A stretch of DNA of 38,260 bases, from the IMG/VR virus record IMGVR_UViG_3300020459_000031, positions 1-38,260 of that record; one strand, 5' to 3'. A program made the position numbers and the translations under genes. The DNA is from a virus. Of this stretch, positions 23,312 to 36,534 are shown one piece after another; position 1 is the first letter of the stretch, and each line of letters opens with the position of its first letter. Under the pieces are notes generated by a model. The model saw only the letters and a list, made by a program, of their open reading frames with translations. It searched no databases and was not told the origin of the DNA.

Positions 23312-23824
23312 ATGCCTATTAAAATAAGAAAAAGTGGTTCTTGGGAAACTGTTAGTGATGGTGCTGACGGTGCTGACGGTGCTAGTAACATACCTACTGG
23401 TTGTATCATGATGTTTTATGGTACTACTGCTCCTACTGGATGGCAGATATGTAATGGATCAAATGGATCGCCAGATTTGAGGAATAAATTTATTGTTTCT
23501 ACTGGTAGTAGTTATTCTCTTTCGGCTGAAGGTGGATCAAATAGTGTATCACTTACTGAGGCACAAATGCCATCACACGATCATGATGCCGATGCATCAG
23601 TAAGTGATCCAGGTCACAAACATCAGTTAAAAGGTGGTGTTGATGATGCTGATAGTGGTAGTTATATTTCTGCAGGTGATCAAACTGGTAATCTAAATGT
23701 TGGTGCAATGGATGATGCAACAACAGGTATTAGTGTTTCAATTGATATTGATAATGAAGGTAGTGGAAGTAGTCATGAGAACAGACCACCATACTTTGCT
23801 CTTACGTTTATAATGAAACTTTAA
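23312..23824 (+). CDS. Tail-collar domain protein with short collagen-like stretch
   Basis: A 170-residue protein. Residues about 17-27 are a short collagen-like run (DGADGADGAS). The rest is a phage tail collar (short tail fibre, gp12-type) domain: TTAPTGWQICNGSNGSPDLR, NKFIVSTG, SLTEAQMPSHDHD, and the C-terminal ENRPPYFALTFIMKL. Paired His residues (HDHD, GHKH) resemble the metal-binding His-x-His motifs of gp12-like tips. It is much shorter than T4 gp12 and so is perhaps a fibre tip or an accessory tip subunit. It lies between two 2OG oxygenases, overlapping the second (TAATG). Confidence 0.82.
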   Translation: MPIKIRKSGSWETVSDGADGADGASNIPTGCIMMFYGTTAPTGWQICNGSNGSPDLRNKFIVSTGSSYSLSAEGGSNSVSLTEAQMPSHDHDADASVSDPGHKHQLKGGVDDADSGSYISAGDQTGNLNVGAMDDATTGISVSIDIDNEGSGSSHENRPPYFALTFIMKL

Positions 23825-24408
23825 TGTTTAAGGAATTGATTTGGGTAAAGAAAAATTCTTTACCTAAAACCTTTTGTGATAAAGTAATAAAGAAATTTGA
23901 GAAAGAACCAAGAAAGAGTGCTGGTGTAATTGGTTCTAATGCTCCTAGAGTTGATAAGTCTATTAAAGATACAACAGATATTAATATTACAAATGTTAGT
24001 GGATGGGAAGAAGAAGATAATATTTTTTATAAAGCATTGCAAGAAGGGTTGGAAGAATATGAGACGTACTTAAAAAATATTCATTATCAGTGTGTTCCAA
24101 ATCCTCAATATCGGATGAAAGATGCTGGATATAAATTACAAAAATATGAACCTAATGGTTTTTACAACTGGCATAATGATTGGTGTATGAGTGATAGTCG
24201 TGGATCAAGAGTTTTTGTTTTTATGTGGTACTTAAACACACTTAAAGTTAAGGATGAAGGATATACAGAATTTTTTGATGGTACAAGATTGCAACCTAAA
24301 TGTGGGAATCTAGTATTTTTCCCTGCTACATGGACATATGTTCATCGTGGGAAGAGACCAAAGGTATGTAAATATTTGTGTAATGGTTGGATATATGCAC
24401 AATGTTGA
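23824..24408 (+). CDS. 2-oxoglutarate/Fe(II)-dependent oxygenase (prolyl-hydroxylase-like)
   Basis: A 194-residue protein with the double-stranded beta-helix oxygenase motifs: YEPNGFYNWHNDW gives H117-x-D119, VFVFMWYLNT is the next core strand, EGYTEFF follows, H174 (TYVHRGKRP) is the distal iron ligand and K183 (CKYLCNGWIY) sits where Arg/Lys binds 2-oxoglutarate. This form is close to phage prolyl-4-hydroxylase-like proteins. The N-terminal 110 residues are a helical lead-in. It overlaps the tail-collar stop codon, so the two are cotranslated, which suggests but does not prove that the collar/collagen-like protein is its substrate. It is clearly diverged from the other oxygenase at 22809. 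Confidence 0.82.
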   Translation: MFKELIWVKKNSLPKTFCDKVIKKFEKEPRKSAGVIGSNAPRVDKSIKDTTDINITNVSGWEEEDNIFYKALQEGLEEYETYLKNIHYQCVPNPQYRMKDAGYKLQKYEPNGFYNWHNDWCMSDSRGSRVFVFMWYLNTLKVKDEGYTEFFDGTRLQPKCGNLVFFPATWTYVHRGKRPKVCKYLCNGWIYAQC

Positions 24409-24843: not shown

Positions 24844-27800
24844 ATGGGTCTCAATAAGTTAGAGAATTTTATTAAGAATATCGAGGGTCGTATTCTTTAT
24901 GTAAATCCAAATGATCTGGATGCCACAGATAGTATTGAAAATCAAGGAAACTCTCTTGCAAAACCTTTCAAGACGGTTCAGAGAGCACTTCTTGAATCAG
25001 CAAGATTTTCGTACATTCGTGGTACAGATAACGATATTATAGAGAAGACAAGTATACTCCTATTTCCAGGCGAACATATAATTGATAACCGCCCAGGATT
25101 TGCTATTAAGAAAGATGCAAGTAATCCTCTTCAAGCAAAGGCAGTTGCTCCAGGTGGTGCCCCTGAAACCATAGCACAAGATACCCTCACATTAAATTTA
25201 GATTCTAATTTCGACCTAACTCAATCTGATAATATACTTTATAAGTTTAATAGTATTCATGGTGGTGTTGTTGTACCTAGAGGAACCTCTTTAGTTGGTC
25301 TAGATTTAAGAAAGACAAAGATAAGACCAAAATACGTTCCAAACCCAACAGATGCTAATGTTAAGAAAAGTTCTATATTCAAGGTAACGGGTTCTTGTTA
25401 TTTCTGGCAATTCTCCATATTTGATGGAAATGAGAATGGATTAGTTTATACTGATGATTCTGATTTTAGTTCTAATAATCAGTCTAAACCAAGTTTCTCT
25501 CACCACAAATTAACTGTATTTGATTATGCTGATGGTGTTAATACTGCTGCAGGTTTTGATTTAACAGATCTTGACATGTACTATAGTAAGCTATCAAATG
25601 CTTATAATAGTTCTGCTGGTAAAGATAGAGGTATTAATGAGAAATATCCTGCTGATCCACTTGGATTCTCTAAACAGAGACCAGAATGGGAAATAGTTGG
25701 TGCATTTGCTGCTGATCCTGTTAATATTTCTAATATCGAATCTGGTGATGGAAGTAGTCCAACTACTGTTGTTACTGTTACAACAGCAACAGCACATGGA
25801 TTAAATGCTGGTACTCCAATTAAGATTAAAGGAGTTACTACATTAGATTATAATATTTCAACAGTAGTTCAGAATGTAACTGGTGAGAAATCATTCACAT
25901 ATCTTTTACCATTTGTAAGGACTAATTTACCTGCTAATCCTAGTTCTTCTAATGCAACAGTAACTATTGAGACTGATACAGTTGCAGGTGCATCTCCATA
26001 TATCTTTAACTGCTCTATGCGTTCTGTATGGGGTATGAATGGTATGCTTGCTGATGGTAGCAAAGCATCTGGATTTAAATCAATGGTTGTGGCACAGTTT
26101 ACTGGTGTCTCACTACAAAAAGATGACCGTGCATTTGTAAAATATAACCCAGATTCAAGATTATATAATAGTATTACAGTAAATCTTGCTAAAGGTTCTG
26201 CTCTTAATAGAGATGCGTCTTCTACTGATCCTGAGAAAGTATATCATTTAGATAGTAAAGCAATCTATAGAAGTGGATGGGAGACTAGTCATATTAAGAT
26301 ACAAAATGATGCTGTACTTCAGATTGTATCTGTATTTGCTATTGGATTTAATAAGCACTTTGATATTCAATCTGGTGCTGATGCTTCAATTACAAACTCT
26401 AACTCCAACTTTGGTCAATTATCTCTTGTTGCTGAAGGATTTAAGAAAGATGCATTTGATAAAGATAACCATTGCTTTATAACAAATATTATTACACCAA
26501 AAGCAATAACTGAAACTGCTCAACAGATTGAATGGCTTCCTCTTGATGTAACTAAGACAAAACAGACAGGTATTTCTAGTCATCTTTATATTGCTGATTA
26601 TACAGATAAAGATGATGCACCACCAACTCTTATTCAGGGTTATAGATTGGGTGCAAATCTAGAAGATAAATTGTATGTAACTGTTGGAGCAGGAGCTCCC
26701 ACTACTAATAATGCATCCATTGTTATGGTTTCTAATACAACTGGTGCTGGTACGACAGTATCTAATGGATCATTAGTTAGTGAAAAGAAATATAGAGTTA
26801 CTGTTGGACCGACTGGAATAACTAATAGACTTACTATAGGTAATAATGAATTATTAACTGGTGAAAAAATAAGGGTCTTTAGTGATGATGCAGACCTTCC
26901 AGAAAATATTGAAGATAATGTAGTATATTATGTAATTAATAATGGTGATAACAATACTATATCATTAGCATCGACTAAAACTAATGCTGAAAATGGTACT
27001 GAGATTAGTATCAATGATGGAACTAATCTTTATGTTTCAAGTAGAGTATCTGATAAAGGATCTGGTGATATAGGACACCCAATTCAGTATGATAATGTAC
27101 AAAATCAGTGGTATCTTCATAGTACTGTAGGTAATGCAATCTATAATGCTATTGTTGGATTTACTGGTCCTGAAACATCAACTAATACTGGTTATGTTAA
27201 TAGGGTTAATGATCCAAGATCTCTTGATGATAAACTTTATAAGTTACGTGTAGTTATTCCGAAGGAAGCAATTAATGCAAAGAATCCAACTGAAGGATTT
27301 GTTATTCAAGAATCTGGTTCTACTGGATTTAGAAAAAATGCTGATGCTTCTGCAACATCAATATTAACTTCTGATTATGATTTTAATAAGAATCTAAGAT
27401 TCATTAGAACTACATCTGAATCTGGTAATGTTGTAACTGTAGTAACAGAACAACCTCATAATCTAAATGTAGAAGATATTGTCAATATTAAAAAGGTAAA
27501 GAGTTCTAATAATACTACTGCTGCAGAAAATAAAGGTTATAATGGAACCTTTATTGTAACAGAAGTAAATAGTGACAAACAATTTAGATATTCTACTACA
27601 GATGTAGATGGAGTTCTTCATGCTAATCCTGGTACATTTACTAATGATGTAGCAGTTAGAGATACAGAACTTCCAAAATTTGAGAGAAATAATTGTAGAA
27701 GTAACTTCTATATTTACAGAAATGAAACTTTATCTGAGTACATTGAAGGTATTCAAGATGGTGTATATCATCTATTTGCATTAAAATCTGATAGAACAGT

Positions 27801-30633
27801 ACCAACAGAATTTACAGGATTAAAGTATAGTCAAAGTGTTGAAGATCTATATCCTCAACTTGATAAAGATAATTATGATGATAACCCAAATTCAGCAAAA
27901 TCATTTGCATTAAGAAGTCCTATAGGTGATGTTGTTACTGATGATCTTAAGAAGAGTATCACAAGAGAAAATGCAGATACTTTTATTACAGAACTTGGTA
28001 TAGGTCATAAGATTAGTGGAGTTACAACAACAACTTCTCTTGCTACTATTACATTTGATAGAGCACATAAATTTGCACAAATAGTTGCAGGAACTGTTAC
28101 TGCTGGTGCATCATATACTAATGGAACATATCAAAACGTCCCATTATTATCTGGATCTCAGACAGGAACATGGGCAGGTGCAACTGCAAGAGTAGTTGTT
28201 GCTGGTGGATCAGTAACTAGTGCTGAGATTGTATGTGCTGGATCTGGATATTCTACAGGTGCATTATTCTTTGATCAGACTGTTATAGGTGCTGGTAATG
28301 GTAATGCTAGATTTACTGTAAATGAGGTAACTAATAATATTGGAGATTGTGTACAAGTATCTGGTATTGGTACTGTCACTGATGGTATTGCAACAATAAC
28401 TGCTATTTCTGGTAATAGTGCTATTCAGATTCCAAGAAGTGGAACTGATCTTGCTATTGCTGGTCAGTATGTTATTAATAATGGTCCATCTGCTGGACTT
28501 GCATCTACTTCTTATGTAACATCAACTAAAGTTACTACATTTAATTGTACTTCTCCTCATGGATTAGTATCTGGTAATAAATTTAGAGTAATAAATGTTT
28601 CTAATAGTAATCTCGGTGATTTTATTGTAAAAGAAAGAGTTGGTGTTAACACATTTACTGCTATAACAAGTGGTACTGTAGCATCTCCATCTCGTATTAT
28701 TAAACATTCACTAGCTGCTACTAATGCAATATCAGATAATGATAATGAATCATTGGGTGCAAGAGGAATATCATTCTATGATAATACTAATTTAACTTTA
28801 AGTGCTGCAGTTCTTAAGGCTGCTAATGCTACCAGTCTTAGGATTGTTGGTATTAATACTCTTGCAAAAGCACCAATAGGATCTTATCTTCAAATTGATA
28901 ATGAAGTAGTTAGAGTTTCTAGTTCTTCATTAAGTGGAACTGGTAATAATGAACTTACTGTTATTCGTGGTGTATTAGGAACACCAAAAGAAGAACATGA
29001 AATAGATTCTATAGTTAAAAGAGTTAATCCAATAGCAACTGAATTGCGTAGACCTTCTATTATTCGTGCTTCTGGTCATACATTTGAGTATCTTGGTTAT
29101 GGACCAGGTAACTATTCAACTGGTTTACCACAGGTACAAAACAGAACACTAACTGATAGAGAAGATTTCTTATCACAATCACAAGAAAGGTCTTGTGGTA
29201 CTGTTGTTTACACTGGTATGAATAGTGATGGTGATTTCTATATTGGTAATAAGAGGATTAATTCTGCTACTGGTAAAGAAAGAACATTTGATGCTCCTAT
29301 TCCTACAGTTACAGGACAAGATCCTTCAAGATTGAGTGTTGTATTTGATGAAGTTACTATTAAAGATAGACTTACTGTTGAAGGTGGTAAATCAAAACGA
29401 ATCTTATCTCAGTTTGATGGTCCTGTTACTATTAACAATGAACTTAAAGTTGAACAGAAGTGTACTGTAAATGGTGCATTAAGAGCATATAATTTAGATA
29501 TTACAAGTGATGAGCAATCAACAAATGAAAATAACGGAGCACTAGTCATTCTTGGTGGTGTTGGTATTAAGAAGAATCTTAATGTGGGTGGAGACTTTAG
29601 TTGTGCAAGTTTTGGTGCTGATGGATTAGTTGTTTCTGGTATAGCAACATTCCAGAATGATGTTAATGTAGAGGGACCTCTTCATGTAAAAGATACAACA
29701 CAATCAAATGGTGTTGATGAAGGTGCATTAATGGTTGATGGTGGTGTTGGTATTAACAAACAGTTATATGTTGGTGCTGGTGCTACGGTTCAGGGTAAAT
29801 TGGATGTTGATTCTGATCTAAATGTTGATGGTGCTGCACAAATTGATGGTAATACCAATCTTGATGGAACTCTTACTGCTGGTGGTTTAACTACTATTAA
29901 CAATGGTGTAACTATTAATTCTGCTGGTAAGAACTTTGCTATTCAGAATGGTGCTGGAACTCCTGTCACTAAGTTTGACGTAGATACTGACAATGGTAAT
30001 GTAATTTCTAAAGGAACATATACTTCTACTGGAGATATGCTTCCAGAAACTGATGAAGGTGCAAGTTTAGGTTCTGCAACTAAGAGATGGGAATACATAT
30101 ATGCAACTAATATTACTGGTACTCTAACTGGTGGTGCTACTAAAGTAAAAACTACTGCTACGGATAGTGGAACTAATTATCTAACGTTTGTAGATGCTGC
30201 AACTTCAACTGATAAAGAAGATTTAAGAGTACATGCTAATTTCTATGTTACTCCTAATACTACAGCAGCTTCTGCTAACATGTATGTTAGAGGAGACATT
30301 ACTGCATTTGCAGGTGCAGCATCTGATGATAGATTAAAGACTAATAAAGTTATACTTGATGGTGCTCTTGATAAAGTATTATCCTTAAGTGGATTTACAT
30401 ATAATTGGAATGGATTAGCAGTAGATCTTGGATTTGTTGCAGAGGAAAAACAGGTTGGTGTATCCGCACAACAAGTACAATCAGTATTACCAGAAGCAGT
30501 TAAGAGTGAGACACTTGATGATAAAGAAATTCTCGTAGTTAAATATGAGAAAATAGTTCCACTTCTTATTGAAGCAATTAAGGAACTATCTGCTAAGGTT
30601 GATAACCTTGAACAAAAAATATCAGATAAATAA
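24844..30633 (+). CDS. Giant tail fibre with pectin-lyase-like N-terminal region and S74 self-cleaving chaperone
   Basis: A 1929-residue protein, the largest in the window. Residues about 15-580 form a beta-helix-like region (RILYVNPNDLDATDS, KPFKTVQRALLESARFSYI, ILLFPGEHIIDNRPG, TNSNSNFGQLSLVAEG). The centre is beta-rich linker and repeat sequence including HTFEYLGYGPGNYST. Two GGVGI modules sit at about 1565-1645, followed by short LDVDSDLNVDG-type repeats. The last 109 residues (from about 1821) are a peptidase-S74 intramolecular chaperone: ASDDRLKTN with the candidate cleavage Ser at 1827, VGVSAQQVQSVLPEAV, VKYEKIVPLLIEAIKEL. This domain helps the fibre trimerise and then cuts itself off. 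An ACTAAATA box precedes the gene. Confidence 0.85.
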   Translation: MGLNKLENFIKNIEGRILYVNPNDLDATDSIENQGNSLAKPFKTVQRALLESARFSYIRGTDNDIIEKTSILLFPGEHIIDNRPGFAIKKDASNPLQAKAVAPGGAPETIAQDTLTLNLDSNFDLTQSDNILYKFNSIHGGVVVPRGTSLVGLDLRKTKIRPKYVPNPTDANVKKSSIFKVTGSCYFWQFSIFDGNENGLVYTDDSDFSSNNQSKPSFSHHKLTVFDYADGVNTAAGFDLTDLDMYYSKLSNAYNSSAGKDRGINEKYPADPLGFSKQRPEWEIVGAFAADPVNISNIESGDGSSPTTVVTVTTATAHGLNAGTPIKIKGVTTLDYNISTVVQNVTGEKSFTYLLPFVRTNLPANPSSSNATVTIETDTVAGASPYIFNCSMRSVWGMNGMLADGSKASGFKSMVVAQFTGVSLQKDDRAFVKYNPDSRLYNSITVNLAKGSALNRDASSTDPEKVYHLDSKAIYRSGWETSHIKIQNDAVLQIVSVFAIGFNKHFDIQSGADASITNSNSNFGQLSLVAEGFKKDAFDKDNHCFITNIITPKAITETAQQIEWLPLDVTKTKQTGISSHLYIADYTDKDDAPPTLIQGYRLGANLEDKLYVTVGAGAPTTNNASIVMVSNTTGAGTTVSNGSLVSEKKYRVTVGPTGITNRLTIGNNELLTGEKIRVFSDDADLPENIEDNVVYYVINNGDNNTISLASTKTNAENGTEISINDGTNLYVSSRVSDKGSGDIGHPIQYDNVQNQWYLHSTVGNAIYNAIVGFTGPETSTNTGYVNRVNDPRSLDDKLYKLRVVIPKEAINAKNPTEGFVIQESGSTGFRKNADASATSILTSDYDFNKNLRFIRTTSESGNVVTVVTEQPHNLNVEDIVNIKKVKSSNNTTAAENKGYNGTFIVTEVNSDKQFRYSTTDVDGVLHANPGTFTNDVAVRDTELPKFERNNCRSNFYIYRNETLSEYIEGIQDGVYHLFALKSDRTVPTEFTGLKYSQSVEDLYPQLDKDNYDDNPNSAKSFALRSPIGDVVTDDLKKSITRENADTFITELGIGHKISGVTTTTSLATITFDRAHKFAQIVAGTVTAGASYTNGTYQNVPLLSGSQTGTWAGATARVVVAGGSVTSAEIVCAGSGYSTGALFFDQTVIGAGNGNARFTVNEVTNNIGDCVQVSGIGTVTDGIATITAISGNSAIQIPRSGTDLAIAGQYVINNGPSAGLASTSYVTSTKVTTFNCTSPHGLVSGNKFRVINVSNSNLGDFIVKERVGVNTFTAITSGTVASPSRIIKHSLAATNAISDNDNESLGARGISFYDNTNLTLSAAVLKAANATSLRIVGINTLAKAPIGSYLQIDNEVVRVSSSSLSGTGNNELTVIRGVLGTPKEEHEIDSIVKRVNPIATELRRPSIIRASGHTFEYLGYGPGNYSTGLPQVQNRTLTDREDFLSQSQERSCGTVVYTGMNSDGDFYIGNKRINSATGKERTFDAPIPTVTGQDPSRLSVVFDEVTIKDRLTVEGGKSKRILSQFDGPVTINNELKVEQKCTVNGALRAYNLDITSDEQSTNENNGALVILGGVGIKKNLNVGGDFSCASFGADGLVVSGIATFQNDVNVEGPLHVKDTTQSNGVDEGALMVDGGVGINKQLYVGAGATVQGKLDVDSDLNVDGAAQIDGNTNLDGTLTAGGLTTINNGVTINSAGKNFAIQNGAGTPVTKFDVDTDNGNVISKGTYTSTGDMLPETDEGASLGSATKRWEYIYATNITGTLTGGATKVKTTATDSGTNYLTFVDAATSTDKEDLRVHANFYVTPNTTAASANMYVRGDITAFAGAASDDRLKTNKVILDGALDKVLSLSGFTYNWNGLAVDLGFVAEEKQVGVSAQQVQSVLPEAVKSETLDDKEILVVKYEKIVPLLIEAIKELSAKVDNLEQKISDK
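30625..30632 (+). promoter_or_regulatory. Late promoter box (GATAAATA)
   Basis: GATAAATA overlaps the stop codon of the giant fibre and ends 14 nt before the ATG at 30647. Spacing is at the short end of the range. Confidence 0.45.
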
Positions 30634-30646
30634 CTAAAAAACTACG

Positions 30647-33124
30647 ATGCCTAATATAAGGAAGAGCTTTCACTTTAGAGAAGGAGTCCAAGTCGATGAT
30701 GAAGTACTCGTCGTTCGTGGATCTAGGGTGGGTATTGGTACTACTGTACCTGATGAAGCGTTAGATGTTCGTGGAGATGCTAAAGTAACTGGCATAGCAA
30801 CAGTTAATAATATATTCTCTTCTGGAATATCAACTCTAACTGAACTTAGAATAGGAACTGGTATAACAGTATCATCTTCTAGTGGCATTGTATCAGCAAC
30901 TAAGTTTGTTGGAGATGGATCTCTTTTAACCAGTCTTCCTACTTCGGCATGGACAAGTTATGGATCAACAGGAATATATACTCATTCTAATGTAGGTGTA
31001 GGTACTGCATTTCCAACAAGAGATTTACAAATAGGTGCAGATCCTTATGCACAATCAACTCTTTCTGGTGTAGGTATTGGATCTGATGGAAATATAAAAG
31101 CTAGTGGTATTGTAACAGCATCAAGTTTTGTAGGAGATATAACAGGTGATTTAACAGGTGAAGTTAATGCAGGTTCATTAGATACTAATGCTAATGGAGT
31201 TGTTGTAACTGGAGACTTAAGTGTATCTGGTGTTTCTACAGTTAATGATGATGTTAACTTTATAGGTGCTGCAAGTACTATTCAATTCGATAAATCGGAT
31301 AGTTCTTTAGACTTTAATGATAATGCTAGAATTAGACTAGGCAATAATTCAGATATACAGATTTTTCATAATTCTGGTGATAGTTATGGTTATATTAGAA
31401 ATTCTAATGTACAACCCTTAAGAATAACTGGTAATCTTACGCAGATAAGAAATTCTGCTGATACTAATAACATTGCTGATTTCCAGGAAAATCTTGGTGT
31501 TCAGTTATATCACATTGGAACTAAAAGATTAGTTACATCTGGAGTCGGTGTTACTATAACATCTCAACTAGATGTTGGTAATGTTGTTGCATCTAGTGGA
31601 TATGCAGGTGTTAGTGGAATAACAACAGTCGGTATTTCAACTACAGGTATTACTACAACTGGTGGTAGATTATATACTGCTGATGATATTAAAGCTGGTA
31701 ATGGATTAGAAGTTACTGGTGTCTCTACACTTGGAGTATCAACATTTACTGGTGATGTAAGTTTTGGTTCTACTGTATCATTTAATGATAATAGTAAAGC
31801 AACATTTGGTGATGGTGCAGATCTTTCCATACATCATACAGGATCAGACAGTATTATAAAGAATACAATTGGTCAATTAGCATTACAAAGCCCACAGTGG
31901 GGAGTTTCTGGTTCTGGAGGACAAGGATATAATATCTATTGTGTTGCAGGCGCACAAATTCAATTATATTATGCAGGAAATGAAAAACTAAAGACTACTG
32001 AAAATGGTGTTCAGATAACAGGAATAACAACATCTACTGGAAGAGTTGATGTTAGTGTTGGTGGTACTGCATTTACAGCATTACCTACAGGTAGAGTTGG
32101 TGTAGGAACTGCAATTCCTGGAGTAGATCTTCAGATTAAGAAACCAGTTAGTTCTACATTAGAACTTATTTCTGATACTGGTACATCTACCATAAGTATT
32201 GGTAATTCTGTAGGTGCTGGTAATAGTTCTGCACAGATTAAATTTGGAAATGGATCATTAGAGTTCTTTAATAAGGATCTTGGTAGTGTAAACATGTATC
32301 TTCATTCTGGTAGTGCAGGTGTTGGTACTGGTAGATTTGATTGGCTTTATGGACAAGGTAATGATGAATTAATGTGCTTAACCCATGAAAAGAAATTGGG
32401 TATAGGTATTACTAATCCATCAAACAATCTTCATGTTGTAGGCACATCTACAATTACAAGTCATTCTTATGTCGGTGGTAATCTACATGTTGATGGAACT
32501 ATCTACGGAACAGTTAACTTCCCAACTATTCTCAATAGCATACAAATAAACAATACTTCAGGTCTTTCTACATTCCATAATGTAACAATAGGCAATGTAG
32601 GTAATATTTCATCTATTGGTATTAATAATAATACTCCTAGAGTTTCCATAGATGCCTTTAGTGGACATATAATGGGAGGTAAACTTGGTATTGGTACTGC
32701 ACATATTAAGGAAGAGACTTCATTAACTGTACAAGGATTAACATTCTTTAATCATATTGGAATTGGTACTACTGCTGAAGTTTCTGGAAGTGGATCTGGT
32801 ACGTTACCTTCAGAAGGATTACAGGCACATGATACTACTATTGGAATTAAGAGTTGTATTACTAGGATTGAAGGAAACAGTACAATAACAACTAATGAAA
32901 GTACTTTAGTTGGTATAGGTACTACATTACCAAGAGCAGCAGTTGATTTTGCTTCTGCTGGAGATAGCACTGTTTTGGCAAATGCTAGATATATGCTTCC
33001 ACCTACGATAACAACTACTCAAAGAAATGCTTTAAGTTCAGTAGTTGCAGGTGCAATAATTTATAATACTGTCGATAATAAACTTCAATGTTATAATGGA
33101 TCTAGTTGGAACAATCTGTTCTAA
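30647..33124 (+). CDS. Tail fibre protein built of marine-phage shaft repeats
   Basis: An 825-residue fibre starting MPNIRKSFHFREGVQVDDEV. The shaft has typical marine T4-like units: GVVSATKFVGDGSLLT-type (here GIVSATKFVGDGSLLTSLP), VGVGTAFPTRDLQIG, two DIQIFH / DLSIHH ... LYHIGTKRL modules (residues about 235-305 and 390-460) and several GITTxxGR segments. The C-terminal NARYMLPPTITTTQRNALSS and VAGAIIYNTVDNKLQCYNGS form a conserved fibre ending that is also found in other phage fibres. No chaperone domain is present, unlike the preceding fibre. Probably a trimeric long or side tail fibre; its receptor is unknown. Confidence 0.78.
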   Translation: MPNIRKSFHFREGVQVDDEVLVVRGSRVGIGTTVPDEALDVRGDAKVTGIATVNNIFSSGISTLTELRIGTGITVSSSSGIVSATKFVGDGSLLTSLPTSAWTSYGSTGIYTHSNVGVGTAFPTRDLQIGADPYAQSTLSGVGIGSDGNIKASGIVTASSFVGDITGDLTGEVNAGSLDTNANGVVVTGDLSVSGVSTVNDDVNFIGAASTIQFDKSDSSLDFNDNARIRLGNNSDIQIFHNSGDSYGYIRNSNVQPLRITGNLTQIRNSADTNNIADFQENLGVQLYHIGTKRLVTSGVGVTITSQLDVGNVVASSGYAGVSGITTVGISTTGITTTGGRLYTADDIKAGNGLEVTGVSTLGVSTFTGDVSFGSTVSFNDNSKATFGDGADLSIHHTGSDSIIKNTIGQLALQSPQWGVSGSGGQGYNIYCVAGAQIQLYYAGNEKLKTTENGVQITGITTSTGRVDVSVGGTAFTALPTGRVGVGTAIPGVDLQIKKPVSSTLELISDTGTSTISIGNSVGAGNSSAQIKFGNGSLEFFNKDLGSVNMYLHSGSAGVGTGRFDWLYGQGNDELMCLTHEKKLGIGITNPSNNLHVVGTSTITSHSYVGGNLHVDGTIYGTVNFPTILNSIQINNTSGLSTFHNVTIGNVGNISSIGINNNTPRVSIDAFSGHIMGGKLGIGTAHIKEETSLTVQGLTFFNHIGIGTTAEVSGSGSGTLPSEGLQAHDTTIGIKSCITRIEGNSTITTNESTLVGIGTTLPRAAVDFASAGDSTVLANARYMLPPTITTTQRNALSSVVAGAIIYNTVDNKLQCYNGSSWNNLF

Positions 33125-33127
33125 ATA
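33120..33127 (+). promoter_or_regulatory. Putative late promoter box (TCTAAATA) for the halogenase
   Basis: TCTAAATA overlaps the stop codon of the fibre gene and ends 22 nt before the halogenase ATG. Same variant as in the gp4/gp54 inverted repeat. Confidence 0.5.
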
Positions 33128-33149
33128 ATTTTTAATTATATTATTCTAA

Positions 33150-34634
33150 ATGAAAAAAGTTGTAATTGTTGGGTCTGGGACTGCTGGATTGATTTCTGCT
33201 GCAATGATCAAAACCTATTGGGGTGATAGGGTTGATGTTTCTTTGTACCATGATGCTAGTAAAGAAACTATTTCAGTAGGAGAAAGTACGACACCATACA
33301 TTAATGCTTTTCTAAGTTTTTTTGGAATACCAGCGAATGAAATAATTAGAGAATTAGATGTAACGGTTAAGTTAGGTATTAATTTTAATAATTGGATACC
33401 TAATCAAAGTTATTTTCATGGGTTTAATTCAGTTAATATTGAGGGTAGAAGAGATGACTCACCTTCAACTTATAGTATTCTAAATGATGATTTTAATAGT
33501 GGATTTTTATATAATGAACCAACTGATACTGTTCCAGAAACATTATTTAATGATTTTTCATATGGATTACATATTGATACCAAACAATTTATAGATTTTT
33601 TAACTAAGAAGTTAGAAGGTAAAATAAATCTCGTAGATGATCTAGTAGAGGATGTAGTAGTCGAGAATGGAAATATTTCTCGTATTGTATGTAAAAATAG
33701 TGGAGTGGTCGAGGGAGATCTTTTTATAGATGCTTCAGGGTTTAATAGAATCTTGTTTCAACATCTAGATCCCAAGTGGAATGACATGTCGAGATATTTA
33801 CCTATAGATAGAGCAATACCTCAACAAGTACCATACGAGTTTGATGGTAAACTTCCATCTTATACTGTATCAGAAGCAACAGAGAATGGATGGATTTGGA
33901 AAATACCTATTGGAGATAGATACGGAACTGGTTATCTATATTCCTCAAAATTTACAAGTGATGAAGATGCAAGAGAAAAATATAATCAATGGTTAATTGA
34001 TAATTTTAATACACAACTTGAGACAGATAGAATAATTAAATATAAACCTGGATATTATGAAGATTATTGGATAGGTAATTGTTTAGCAGTTGGTCTTTCT
34101 AGTGGATTTGTTGAACCATTAGAATCAACAGGAATACATCTTATTATTAAACAAATGTATGATTTAATATTCTTTAACTCAAATTTAGAGAATTTATCAT
34201 TTAATAGAAAATCTGCTAATCTTATTAATAGAGAGTTGTATGTTGATATTATTAATTTTGTTGCTTTACATTATTGTACAAATAGAAATGACTCTGAGTT
34301 TTGGAGATATATGACATCTAATAAACTTGAATGGGTGCAAGATCTTGAAGAGAAATGTAAACATGAGTTTTTAGATATTACTATTTTTAGGAATAATCCA
34401 ACTAGATCATTATGGACGTTAGATAGTTACATAGCAGTAACACATGGACTTAATATACTTAGTAAGGATGCTATAAAGAAACATTTAGAATCAAAGGTTG
34501 ATGGTAATCAATTCTTCTATGGTGGAGATCAGATATTGGATGTTACAAAACAATTACATCAATATTCTATTGATAAAAAGAATGAAATTAAGTATATGTC
34601 ACATAGTAAAGCATTAAAAGCTATGAGTTATTGA
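33150..34634 (+). CDS. Flavin-dependent (tryptophan-type) halogenase
   Basis: A 494-residue, apparently complete FADH2-dependent halogenase. Visible motifs in order: N-terminal GSGTAG (8-13) for FAD binding, GESTTP (44-49), VTVKLGINFNNW with K74 at the place of the catalytic lysine that forms the hypohalite/haloamine species, LFIDASG (191-197), the class hallmark W248-x-W250-x-IP followed by GTGYLYSS, and AVGLSSGFVEPLESTGI (313-329) with the conserved Glu at 325. Length fits the 500-550 residue family. A related marine viral halogenase (VirX1, cyanophage Syn10) has been shown to iodinate a wide range of substrates in vitro. No flavin reductase or amino-acid pathway gene lies nearby; the neighbours are fibre genes. 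Confidence 0.93.
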   Translation: MKKVVIVGSGTAGLISAAMIKTYWGDRVDVSLYHDASKETISVGESTTPYINAFLSFFGIPANEIIRELDVTVKLGINFNNWIPNQSYFHGFNSVNIEGRRDDSPSTYSILNDDFNSGFLYNEPTDTVPETLFNDFSYGLHIDTKQFIDFLTKKLEGKINLVDDLVEDVVVENGNISRIVCKNSGVVEGDLFIDASGFNRILFQHLDPKWNDMSRYLPIDRAIPQQVPYEFDGKLPSYTVSEATENGWIWKIPIGDRYGTGYLYSSKFTSDEDAREKYNQWLIDNFNTQLETDRIIKYKPGYYEDYWIGNCLAVGLSSGFVEPLESTGIHLIIKQMYDLIFFNSNLENLSFNRKSANLINRELYVDIINFVALHYCTNRNDSEFWRYMTSNKLEWVQDLEEKCKHEFLDITIFRNNPTRSLWTLDSYIAVTHGLNILSKDAIKKHLESKVDGNQFFYGGDQILDVTKQLHQYSIDKKNEIKYMSHSKALKAMSY

Positions 34635-34640
34635 TAAATA
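34633..34640 (+). promoter_or_regulatory. Late promoter box (GATAAATA)
   Basis: GATAAATA overlaps the halogenase stop codon and ends 19 nt before the ATG of the Gly-rich adhesin gene. Confidence 0.6.
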
Positions 34641-34659
34641 GTAAAAAGTATAATTATCA

Positions 34660-36210
34660 ATGGCAGTAACAGTATCAAAAAATGGTCCTCATTTTACTTC
34701 AGGTGCTATAACATGGAGTGATTATAGAGATAAGTTTAAGAGAGCAACCACTGGTTCTGTAAGTGCGTCAGAAATGCACAGAATTACATCCACAAGTAAT
34801 ACAGATCCAACAATGCCTGACGCTACTGAAAATGCTTCAGTACCTACAGGTGGTACTATTGCAGCATCAAATATTAGAAATACAATTAAGTCTTATAATA
34901 TAACAGTAACAGGAGATAATAGTCAGTTCAATATTGGTAGTCAGTCTTGGAATAGTAATTATAATAAGAATATACAAAAGTGGACATATTTATTTGGATC
35001 ATATTATTCTAATTCTACTGGTACTCCTGCCCTTAGAACTGGATCTACAACATATAATAATACTTTATTAGTTGAAGGAACTGTAAAAGCAGCAGGTGGA
35101 GCAAAAGGACAATCACCTAGTGGTAATGGTGGTAATGGTGGTCATGCAATAGATGTTGCTGGTGGAAATAATATTCATATACAGTTGGTTGCACAGTCTC
35201 GTGTTTGGGGTGGTGGAGGAGGTGGTGGTGCTGGTGGACCTGGAATCTCAGGTGCATTTGGAACATGTAGAAAAGAATATGATATTCAAGGATGTGGTAG
35301 TCTTCCTGCATGTAATCAAGGAGGTACTGGTACTTTAATATCATCATTTACTGGTGATTGTTGTAATAAAATTAGGTATTGTGGTGGTCCTTGGAACTCA
35401 TTCTGTTGGCATGAATGTTGGGGTGACTGGAATTATGGAACCTGTAGGTTTGAGGCAAACTCAACTACTCCTGGTGTGCCTGTTGGTGGAAATGGTGGAC
35501 AAGGACAAGGAAATCAACAAATTAGAACTAATGGTTTTGCTGGAGCTCCTGCTGTTGCACCTTCATGTTCTGGTATTGGTACTATGAGTGGTGCTGATAT
35601 GACTCTAATTGGTGGATCATCATCTACATCTGGTGGAAATGGTGGACAAGGTGGAGATTGGGGTCAATCAGGTGATATTGGAGGTGCTAGAAATTGGGTA
35701 GCAGTAACCAGTGCTGGTTGGGCATCGGCAGCGTGGATGAATGATTTTGCAGTATATCCATCAAATAATAATACTTTAAGTGGTGTAAACCATGAAAGAA
35801 CATGGGATGTTTATGTATCTCAACAGACTGCACATCGTATAGATGTTAGAGCAGATAACTGGGCAGAAATTCTATGGGATGGTGCATCTCAAGGAACACT
35901 AGGTAATAATACAACATTCCCATTTCCTGCTGCATATACAAACGCTACAGTTTTTAATATATTAAGTCCTACTGTAGGATGGCATACAATAACTGCTAGA
36001 GTCTTTAATGGTACTGGAAATTATGATTGGAATACAAATCCAGGTGGAGTTGCATGGGTATTTAAGAAATCATCGTCAATCCAAGTAATTGCAACATCGA
36101 GATCTCCACATCAACAAGGAGGAATTGGTGGATCTGCTGGACATGCGGTAACTGGTAGTGGATATTATGTGACAGGTAATAATGGTACTACAGTTAAAGG
36201 ATCTATATAA
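34660..36210 (+). CDS. Gly-rich, Cys-rich putative receptor-binding adhesin
   Basis: A 516-residue protein. Residues 1-150 are a polar head. Gly-rich segments occur at about 152-160 (GNGGNGGH), 184-194 (GGGGGGGAGGPG), 274-288 (GGNGGQGQG), 323-341 (GGNGGQGGDWGQSG) and 487-515 (QGGIGGSAGH). Their spacing resembles the polyglycine helices of phage tip adhesins of the gp38 type. Between the second and third is an insert (about 202-265) with nine Cys and six Trp. Residues 346-475 look like a beta-sandwich (HRIDVRADNWAEILWDG, GWHTITARVFNGTGNYDWN, NPGGVAWVFKK). Its position downstream of fibre genes fits a fibre-tip receptor binder. Function is inferred from composition and place. Confidence 0.65.
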   Translation: MAVTVSKNGPHFTSGAITWSDYRDKFKRATTGSVSASEMHRITSTSNTDPTMPDATENASVPTGGTIAASNIRNTIKSYNITVTGDNSQFNIGSQSWNSNYNKNIQKWTYLFGSYYSNSTGTPALRTGSTTYNNTLLVEGTVKAAGGAKGQSPSGNGGNGGHAIDVAGGNNIHIQLVAQSRVWGGGGGGGAGGPGISGAFGTCRKEYDIQGCGSLPACNQGGTGTLISSFTGDCCNKIRYCGGPWNSFCWHECWGDWNYGTCRFEANSTTPGVPVGGNGGQGQGNQQIRTNGFAGAPAVAPSCSGIGTMSGADMTLIGGSSSTSGGNGGQGGDWGQSGDIGGARNWVAVTSAGWASAAWMNDFAVYPSNNNTLSGVNHERTWDVYVSQQTAHRIDVRADNWAEILWDGASQGTLGNNTTFPFPAAYTNATVFNILSPTVGWHTITARVFNGTGNYDWNTNPGGVAWVFKKSSSIQVIATSRSPHQQGGIGGSAGHAVTGSGYYVTGNNGTTVKGSI

Positions 36211-36228
36211 TACAAATCATTATTTGAT

Positions 36229-36534
36229 ATGGCAGATTTAATTGATAAGGGTAAGAATCTAGCAAAGTTTTCATGGGATCTTGTATCTTATATTCAGACT
36301 CATAAAGAATCAATATTTGCTAGTGATGATTTGTATAGAGAACGCATGATGATATGTAAGTCATGCGATAAGTATAAAGAATTGGAAAATGAGTGTAAGG
36401 TATGTGGATGTTATGTACCTATGAAGGCAAAGATAATACTTGATTCATGTCCTATTAATAAATGGACACCTTCTGATAAGGAATGGAATGAGAGGTTTGA
36501 TGATGTTATGAAAGAGATAGGTGAAAAATCATAG
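36229..36534 (+). CDS. Small zinc-ribbon-like protein
   Basis: A 101-residue protein with cysteines at about 43, 46, 56, 59, 61 and 74: CKSCDKYKELENECKVCGC, then SCPINKW. Two CxxC pairs ten residues apart fit a zinc ribbon or knuckle. The N-terminal 40 residues are helical (FSWDLVSYIQTHKESIF), and the C-terminus is a charged helix. I believe proteins of this form occur at the ends of fibre operons in other marine T4-like phages, but no function is known to me. It is the last gene of the fibre block, before a 130-nt gap with a terminator. Confidence 0.7.
   Translation: MADLIDKGKNLAKFSWDLVSYIQTHKESIFASDDLYRERMMICKSCDKYKELENECKVCGCYVPMKAKIILDSCPINKWTPSDKEWNERFDDVMKEIGEKS

Follow-up and report, generated by a model that had tools for sequence, protein, structure and literature searches.

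Halogenase genes have been noted in cyanophages for years, and their role has remained unsettled. Flavin-dependent halogenases (FDHs) are well documented in these phages and are usually classed as metabolic (PMC10452541, PMC2984593); one review lists halogenase genes in 20 of 153 cyanophage genomes (PMC10452541). Why, then, would such a gene lie in the middle of a tail fibre gene cluster, and what would its product halogenate? The gene in question was found on a 38-kb viral fragment from IMG/VR, whose tail and baseplate genes are T4-like and whose relatives are cyanophages; the whole stretch of 38,260 nucleotides was analysed and is called the window here. A long tail fibre gene with S74, a gene for a tail-fibre-like protein, the FDH gene, the gene of a glycine-rich adhesin and a DUF6171 gene follow one another in this order (Table 1). 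In our estimate, with a probability of about 0.6, the FDH is an active enzyme dedicated to the gp38-like adhesin encoded downstream and halogenates tryptophan in its receptor-binding loop. Cyanophage FDHs are already known, and what is new here is the location of this one and its co-evolving partner.

Table 1. Features of the FDH-adhesin locus, in window coordinates.
Feature	Position	Strand	Basis or remark
Long tail fibre (1929 aa) ending in an S74 chaperone	24844..30633	+	Pfam, PHROG
Tail-fibre-like protein, 825 aa; in relatives precedes FDH and adhesin, or adhesin alone	30647..33124	+	
Late-box-like element TTCTAAATAAT, TAAATA core at -28 of the FDH start	33119..33129	+	Positional enrichment
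Flavin-dependent halogenase (FDH), 494 aa	33150..34634	+	PF04820, catalytic motifs all intact
Second late-box-like element, TGATAAATAGT, before the adhesin gene; TAAATA core at -25	34632..34642	+	Positional enrichment
gp38-type glycine-rich adhesin, 516 aa, proposed substrate	34660..36210	+	AlphaFold/Foldseek: 9v85, 6f45
Cys/Trp-rich hypervariable loop of the adhesin and end of its GGGGGG core, residues ~183-274, holds CGGPWNSFCWHECWGDWNYGTC	35206..35481	+	Proposed modification target
DUF6171 protein after the adhesin	36229..36534	+	Similar small proteins follow the adhesin in many related loci

The FDH reading frame is complete, from its ATG start to its TGA stop. The protein matches the Pfam family Trp_halogenase (PF04820) with E=2.3e-88 over residues 3-440, at a score of 297.5 bits (cut-off 21) that covers profile positions 1-448 of 458, and it matches the tryptophan halogenase family PHROG 2928 with E=2.1e-97. 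The GSGTAG motif (residues 8-13), K74, W248-I-W250-K-I-P253 and E325 within PLESTGI are all present. Among 40 aligned relatives of the FDH, with identities down to 32%, no substitution was seen at G8, G13, K74, W248, P253 or E325, and conservation is at least 90% at G10 and W250. The reading frame, both family searches and the alignment thus agree with the first-pass annotation, which had described a complete FDH with intact hallmark residues within the tail fibre genes. The AlphaFold model, which like that of the adhesin has about 40 sequences behind it, reaches a pLDDT of 92.7, and its top structural matches are SttH, AbeH, PyrH and PrnA (Z ~40-44), as expected of a halogenase fold. In ten pairs of close relatives dN/dS is 0.025-0.17, i.e. 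the gene is under purifying selection and has therefore been retained for its function. Judging from its sequence, the window FDH is probably active as a halogenase, and the formation of a carbon-halogen bond is apparently the reaction to be predicted for it.

With the free-tryptophan halogenases PrnA, PyrH, RebH, SttH and AbeH, the window FDH shares the fold, the FAD motif, the catalytic Lys and Glu and WxWxIP. However, AbeH and PyrH have a YHG..E stretch for which the window protein shows no match: in the profile alignment, their YHGFE-YS stands opposite non-matching residues around L421-Y427 of the window protein. These residues matter for free Trp, and BrvH, MibH and VirX1 are likewise without a match (PMC8269204). 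The missing stretch would suit an enzyme whose substrate is not free Trp. The free-tryptophan enzymes also differ in their setting, as the window carries no biosynthetic cluster; neither a flavin reductase nor a biosynthetic gene was recognised among its main ORFs scanned, which upholds the earlier remark that none is nearby. The precedent used here comes from MibH, SrpI, MppI and ChlH of RiPP pathways, FDHs that halogenate peptide- or protein-bound Trp (PMC12615548, PMC10286304). Those enzymes modify RiPP precursors or products, whereas the substrate proposed here is a virion structural protein. The fold of MibH matches the window FDH model with Z 38.2.

Alternatively, the FDH could halogenate a small molecule, be it free Trp, an indole, a metabolite of the host or a compound used in defence; it would then be an auxiliary metabolic gene and the adhesin site an insertion hot spot. 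VirX1 of cyanophage Syn10 reportedly iodinates diverse small substrates, reviews class phage FDHs as metabolic or cite a suggested protection from antibiotics, and related FDHs are found at other sites too. VirX1 (PDB 6qgm), which had been brought up for comparison, is indeed a phage FDH of PF04820 with a shared fold (Z 35.6, 24% identity). Nevertheless, we had to abandon it as a close model. It occupies a distant branch of the FDH tree (L164) and a different Syn10 neighbourhood, in tandem with a second FDH, and no adhesin of the present family was found within the 17-kb Syn10 stretch examined. The best bacterial Trp halogenases score better than VirX1 both in phmmer (E of 1e-53 to 1e-55 versus 7.5e-39) and in structural comparison (Z of 43-44 versus 35.6).

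The protein encoded directly after the FDH was also modelled. Its pLDDT is 78 overall and mostly 79-98 over the first 340 residues, the loop included. A Foldseek search with this model retrieved the receptor-binding domain of PP01 gp38 (9v85, E=2.5e-6) and the gp37-gp38 tip of S16 (6f45, E=8.1e-3, probability 0.98). A PDB sequence search with the adhesin profile gave no significant chain match, so that only the fold search connects the protein with gp38. On the strength of the model, the glycine-rich neighbour is probably a gp38-type receptor-binding tip, and the FDH gene therefore directly precedes a probable receptor-binding tip gene. A probable place at the tip of the tail fibre, in contact with the receptor, agrees with the position of the gene beside the fibre genes. 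The gp38 proteins of PP01 and S16 are built around a polyglycine sandwich, from which loops project that bind the receptor, or presumably do so (PMC12892980). The modelled protein shares the polyglycine core and the protruding loops. It differs from them in that no halogenase is reported for S16 or PP01 and in that its Cys-rich loop is a different insertion. In this family of adhesins, a Cys-rich and highly variable loop of ~60-80 residues follows the GGGGGG core.

Two further features of the window adhesin deserve mention. An extra region of ~120 residues after the loop (window 35694-36072, residues ~345-471) is modelled with pLDDT under 60 and matches PHROG 773, 'major head protein'. Foldseek also aligned ~70 columns of the model with resistin (1rgx and 1rfx, E ~0.1, probability 0.97-0.98). 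The columns in question may be those of the Cys-rich loop, and the likeness between disulphide-rich structures may be due to chance.

The pairing of FDH and adhesin recurs. In an adhesin-anchored scan that was blind to FDH, the halogenase gene lies directly upstream of the adhesin gene in 40 of 80 IMG/VR loci, and no FDH adjoins the adhesin in the remaining ones, some of the 80 beginning too near the adhesin for the absence of an FDH to be judged. Several FDH-less loci have an empty site, with 0-22 bases separating the tail protein from the adhesin. PF04820 was absent from the records of FDH-less adhesins (0/29 and 0/13, i.e. 0/42), which are metagenome fragments and cannot prove absence. Because the gene is present in half of the loci, the site is empty elsewhere and the FDH-less records are free of PF04820, the pair is best read as a presence/absence module with a fixed site. 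P-SSM2 has the fibre-tip site without an FDH and carries another FDH far off in its genome; none of the cyanophage FDHs of S-SSM7, S-PM2, P-SSM2 and HTVC008M is located at this fibre-tip site. Some close relatives of the window FDH are also found elsewhere (L104, L105, L109, L110, L112, L114, L125 and L128), and an adhesin search of these records, which are partial, found none in a run without a positive control.

The closest annotated FDH is that of S-SRM01 (MW015081), with 54% identity. It is the only FDH in the record of 240,842 bases, the gene order is that of the window, and its neighbour (QPX48018.1), annotated as a gp37-gp38 adhesin tip, has a Cys/Trp-rich loop with the segment CNWWGNCWW. 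S-SRM01 differs in being a freshwater Synechococcus isolate and in the family of its loop. The paper on S-SRM01 does not mention the halogenase. Two minor observations concern other relatives. In L005, L006, L009 and L010, which belong to one FDH sublineage, a 61-aa ORF (MGYYIKKTGLSGKTVYWTGG...) lies between FDH and adhesin. The 94-kb record of L126 (G063) contains, besides its intact FDH, a further and apparently partial FDH match at ~47411-48391 that consists of two short pieces within one 398-aa frame.

We compared 37 FDH-adhesin pairs with FDHs under 95% identical. Distances between FDHs correlate with those between loops at r=0.81 and with those between adhesin N-termini at 0.67. The partial correlation of FDH and loop is 0.67 given the adhesin N-terminus (37 pairs, p=2e-4), 0.66 given both the N- and C-terminus (37 pairs, p=2e-4) and 0.65 once the N-terminus and the two tail-protein ends are controlled for (29 pairs, p=3e-4), where all p-values come from Mantel tests on clustered lineages, which may be anti-conservative and overstate significance. 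When 30-column windows were moved along the adhesin, the partial signal was 0.44-0.51 in the loop and 0.20 at its trailing edge, and approximately zero or negative outside of these. Loop families, as set by identity thresholds, change 6, 4 and 2 times on the FDH tree, which is the theoretical minimum at each threshold, versus 9, 5 and 4 times on the tree of the adhesin N-terminus and likewise on that of the tail protein, some of the trees including weakly supported branches. The window itself is an example. Its FDH is closest (60-64%) to the FDHs of L075, L036 and L044, and the loops of all share GPW-x-SFC, while the adhesin N-termini of these three are only 36-37% identical to that of the window.

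Since the loop is separated from the FDH gene by the sequence for the adhesin N-terminus, simple physical linkage fails to explain the loop signal. The same geometry bears on the idea that FDH and loop travel together by recombination as a host-range module and are not related as enzyme and substrate. The tail-fibre regions of T4-like phages often recombine, and several loop families are common to distant N-termini. However, a transferred block would include the N-terminus, which covaries less, and we consider this the least probable of the explanations weighed here. It also makes the small-molecule substrate introduced above unlikely that the FDH tracks an internal loop better than the N-terminus nearer to its own gene, in addition to the unmatched YHG..E and to the lack of a recognised biosynthetic partner or reductase in the window. 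By these comparisons, the evolution of the FDH is tied to one loop of the adhesin. From this co-variation we infer that the window FDH would act on peptide- or protein-bound Trp.

Could the target be a different virion protein? The C-terminus of the tail protein, encoded just ahead of the FDH gene, shows co-variation with the FDH as well (partial 0.43) and often holds Trp. The FDH might modify this or another structural protein, with the loop changing in parallel owing to a shared adaptation to the host. However, the correlation of FDH and loop survives control for the tail protein, whereas that of the loop and the tail-protein C-terminus given the FDH is -0.05. Moreover, similar Trp residues are kept in the tail C-terminus of phages that lack the FDH. 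The C-terminal signal is explained by linkage, as this end directly adjoins the FDH gene, and a target of this kind appears very unlikely.

The composition of the loop points in the same direction as the co-variation. All 47 distinct FDH-linked loops contain at least one Trp (mean 4.09), and in the six that hold exactly one it is found at CGW..C. The mean is 1.81 in FDH-less loops of the empty-site type and 0.27 in those of the other type. With near-copies removed, the figures are 4.04 with FDH and 1.45 without (p=1.1e-5), and Trp shows the largest difference of all 20 residues compared. In a phylogenetic regression that used the N-terminus tree, the presence of FDH added 1.97 Trp to the loop (p=0.003), and Trp in the remainder of the adhesin showed no such effect (p=0.52). 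Unfortunately, the independent-pairs test had merely 2 usable pairs and was underpowered. The relation is one-sided. FDH-less adhesins have at least one loop Trp in 13 of 27 cases and none in 14, which rules out the idea that Trp occurs in the loop only when FDH is present, and the presence of Trp alone is no predictor of FDH. A CxWxC-type motif was dropped because it had been defined post hoc. Loop Cys also rises with FDH (p=0.00075) and Tyr falls; as Cys rises alongside Trp, composition does not fix the modified residue.

The joint rise of Cys and Trp brings up another possible chemistry, in which the FDH would oxygenate the loop, i.e. hydroxylate Trp and possibly lead to a Cys-Trp cross-link, as QhpG and LodB/GoxB do for cysteine tryptophylquinone. 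QhpG, whose fold resembles that of FDHs, adds two hydroxyl groups to a peptide-bound Trp (PMC7876137), and the S-SRM01 FDH bears a weak similarity to QhpG and LodB. This similarity is far below threshold, at ~20 bits for cut-offs of 240 and 400, and the window FDH has no match to either protein. The window FDH keeps K74, W248-x-W250-x-IP and E325, and its family score is strongly that of a Trp halogenase. Oxygenation is thus slightly less probable still than modification of a different virion protein.

Halogenation of the adhesin loop remains the preferred reading. The first-pass annotation had proposed a search of virion proteins at large for halogenated Trp or Tyr; the comparative evidence now appears to single out the Cys/Trp-rich loop of the adhesin as the target. 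In such a scheme, the FDH would be supplied with FADH2 by a host reductase, together with oxygen and a halide (bromide or chloride). Late in infection, while the adhesin is being joined to the tail fibre or at some point earlier, it would halogenate the indole of at least one Trp in the hypervariable, Cys-rich loop. The surface that meets the host would thereby become different in hydrophobicity, stability or binding specificity. The reaction itself, Trp as the residue, the halide, the timing and the benefit to adsorption are points that we infer. The evolutionary tie between FDH and loop suggests a virus that chemically decorates its own host-binding tip. The broader proposition that T4-like phages carry dedicated halogenases for Trp in their own tip loop, each lineage matched to a loop family, as a device of host range or adsorption, seems to us to stand at slightly better than even odds.

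As for timing, the element in front of the FDH had been called a putative late box, and as a motif it holds: its core lies at -28, and TAAATA is concentrated upstream of genes. On the + strand, 11 of its 28 copies fall within the 60-nt zones upstream of genes, which total 1440 of the 38260 bases of the window (binomial p=2.5e-9). The 8-mer TATAAATA, with one mismatch allowed, is not enriched window-wide, and hence only the position of the element is informative. A sigma-70 promoter scan performed no better than on shuffled sequence. With a plausible late promoter, the FDH would probably be produced at the time of virion assembly.

In the literature searched, with most subscription journals beyond reach, we found no report of a halogenated virion protein and none in which a halogenase of a phage is connected with tail fibres or any virion protein. 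The pairing of halogenase and loop narrows the question of what these genes do to one isolate, S-SRM01. If the preferred reading is true, it would provide an example of a virus that enzymatically halogenates its own structural protein, and chemical modification would form a layer of host recognition beyond sequence. The family would also constitute a natural library of halogenases matched to folded, disulphide-rich loops, with a use in protein labelling.

Oxygenase genes accompany FDH genes in several places. In the window, a 2OG-Fe(II) oxygenase (PF13640, E=5.2e-13) is encoded at 23824-24408, directly after a tail-collar-fibre-like gene. In several relatives, 2OG-Fe(II) oxygenase and DUF6445/2OG-like genes flank the FDH and adhesin, among them L003:7423-8004 (a clear 2OG-Fe(II) oxygenase), L003:10580-11140 and L005:5235-5771, and their products may modify the same tip. 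L011-L015 carry a second cassette, with a Gly-rich adhesin that starts with MAAPDWSN and has the Trp segments YNWQRV and RRREWWSRYPS. Behind this adhesin gene come, in turn, a gene resembling 2OG oxygenases, one for what may be a second flavoprotein (~455 aa) and an FDH gene. Finally, the distant IMG/VR loci L160, L162, L163, L155 and L143 have 2-4 FDH genes and several 2OG-Fe(II)-oxygenase-like genes each, in some cases beside tail genes, and these clusters look like oxidative modification cassettes.
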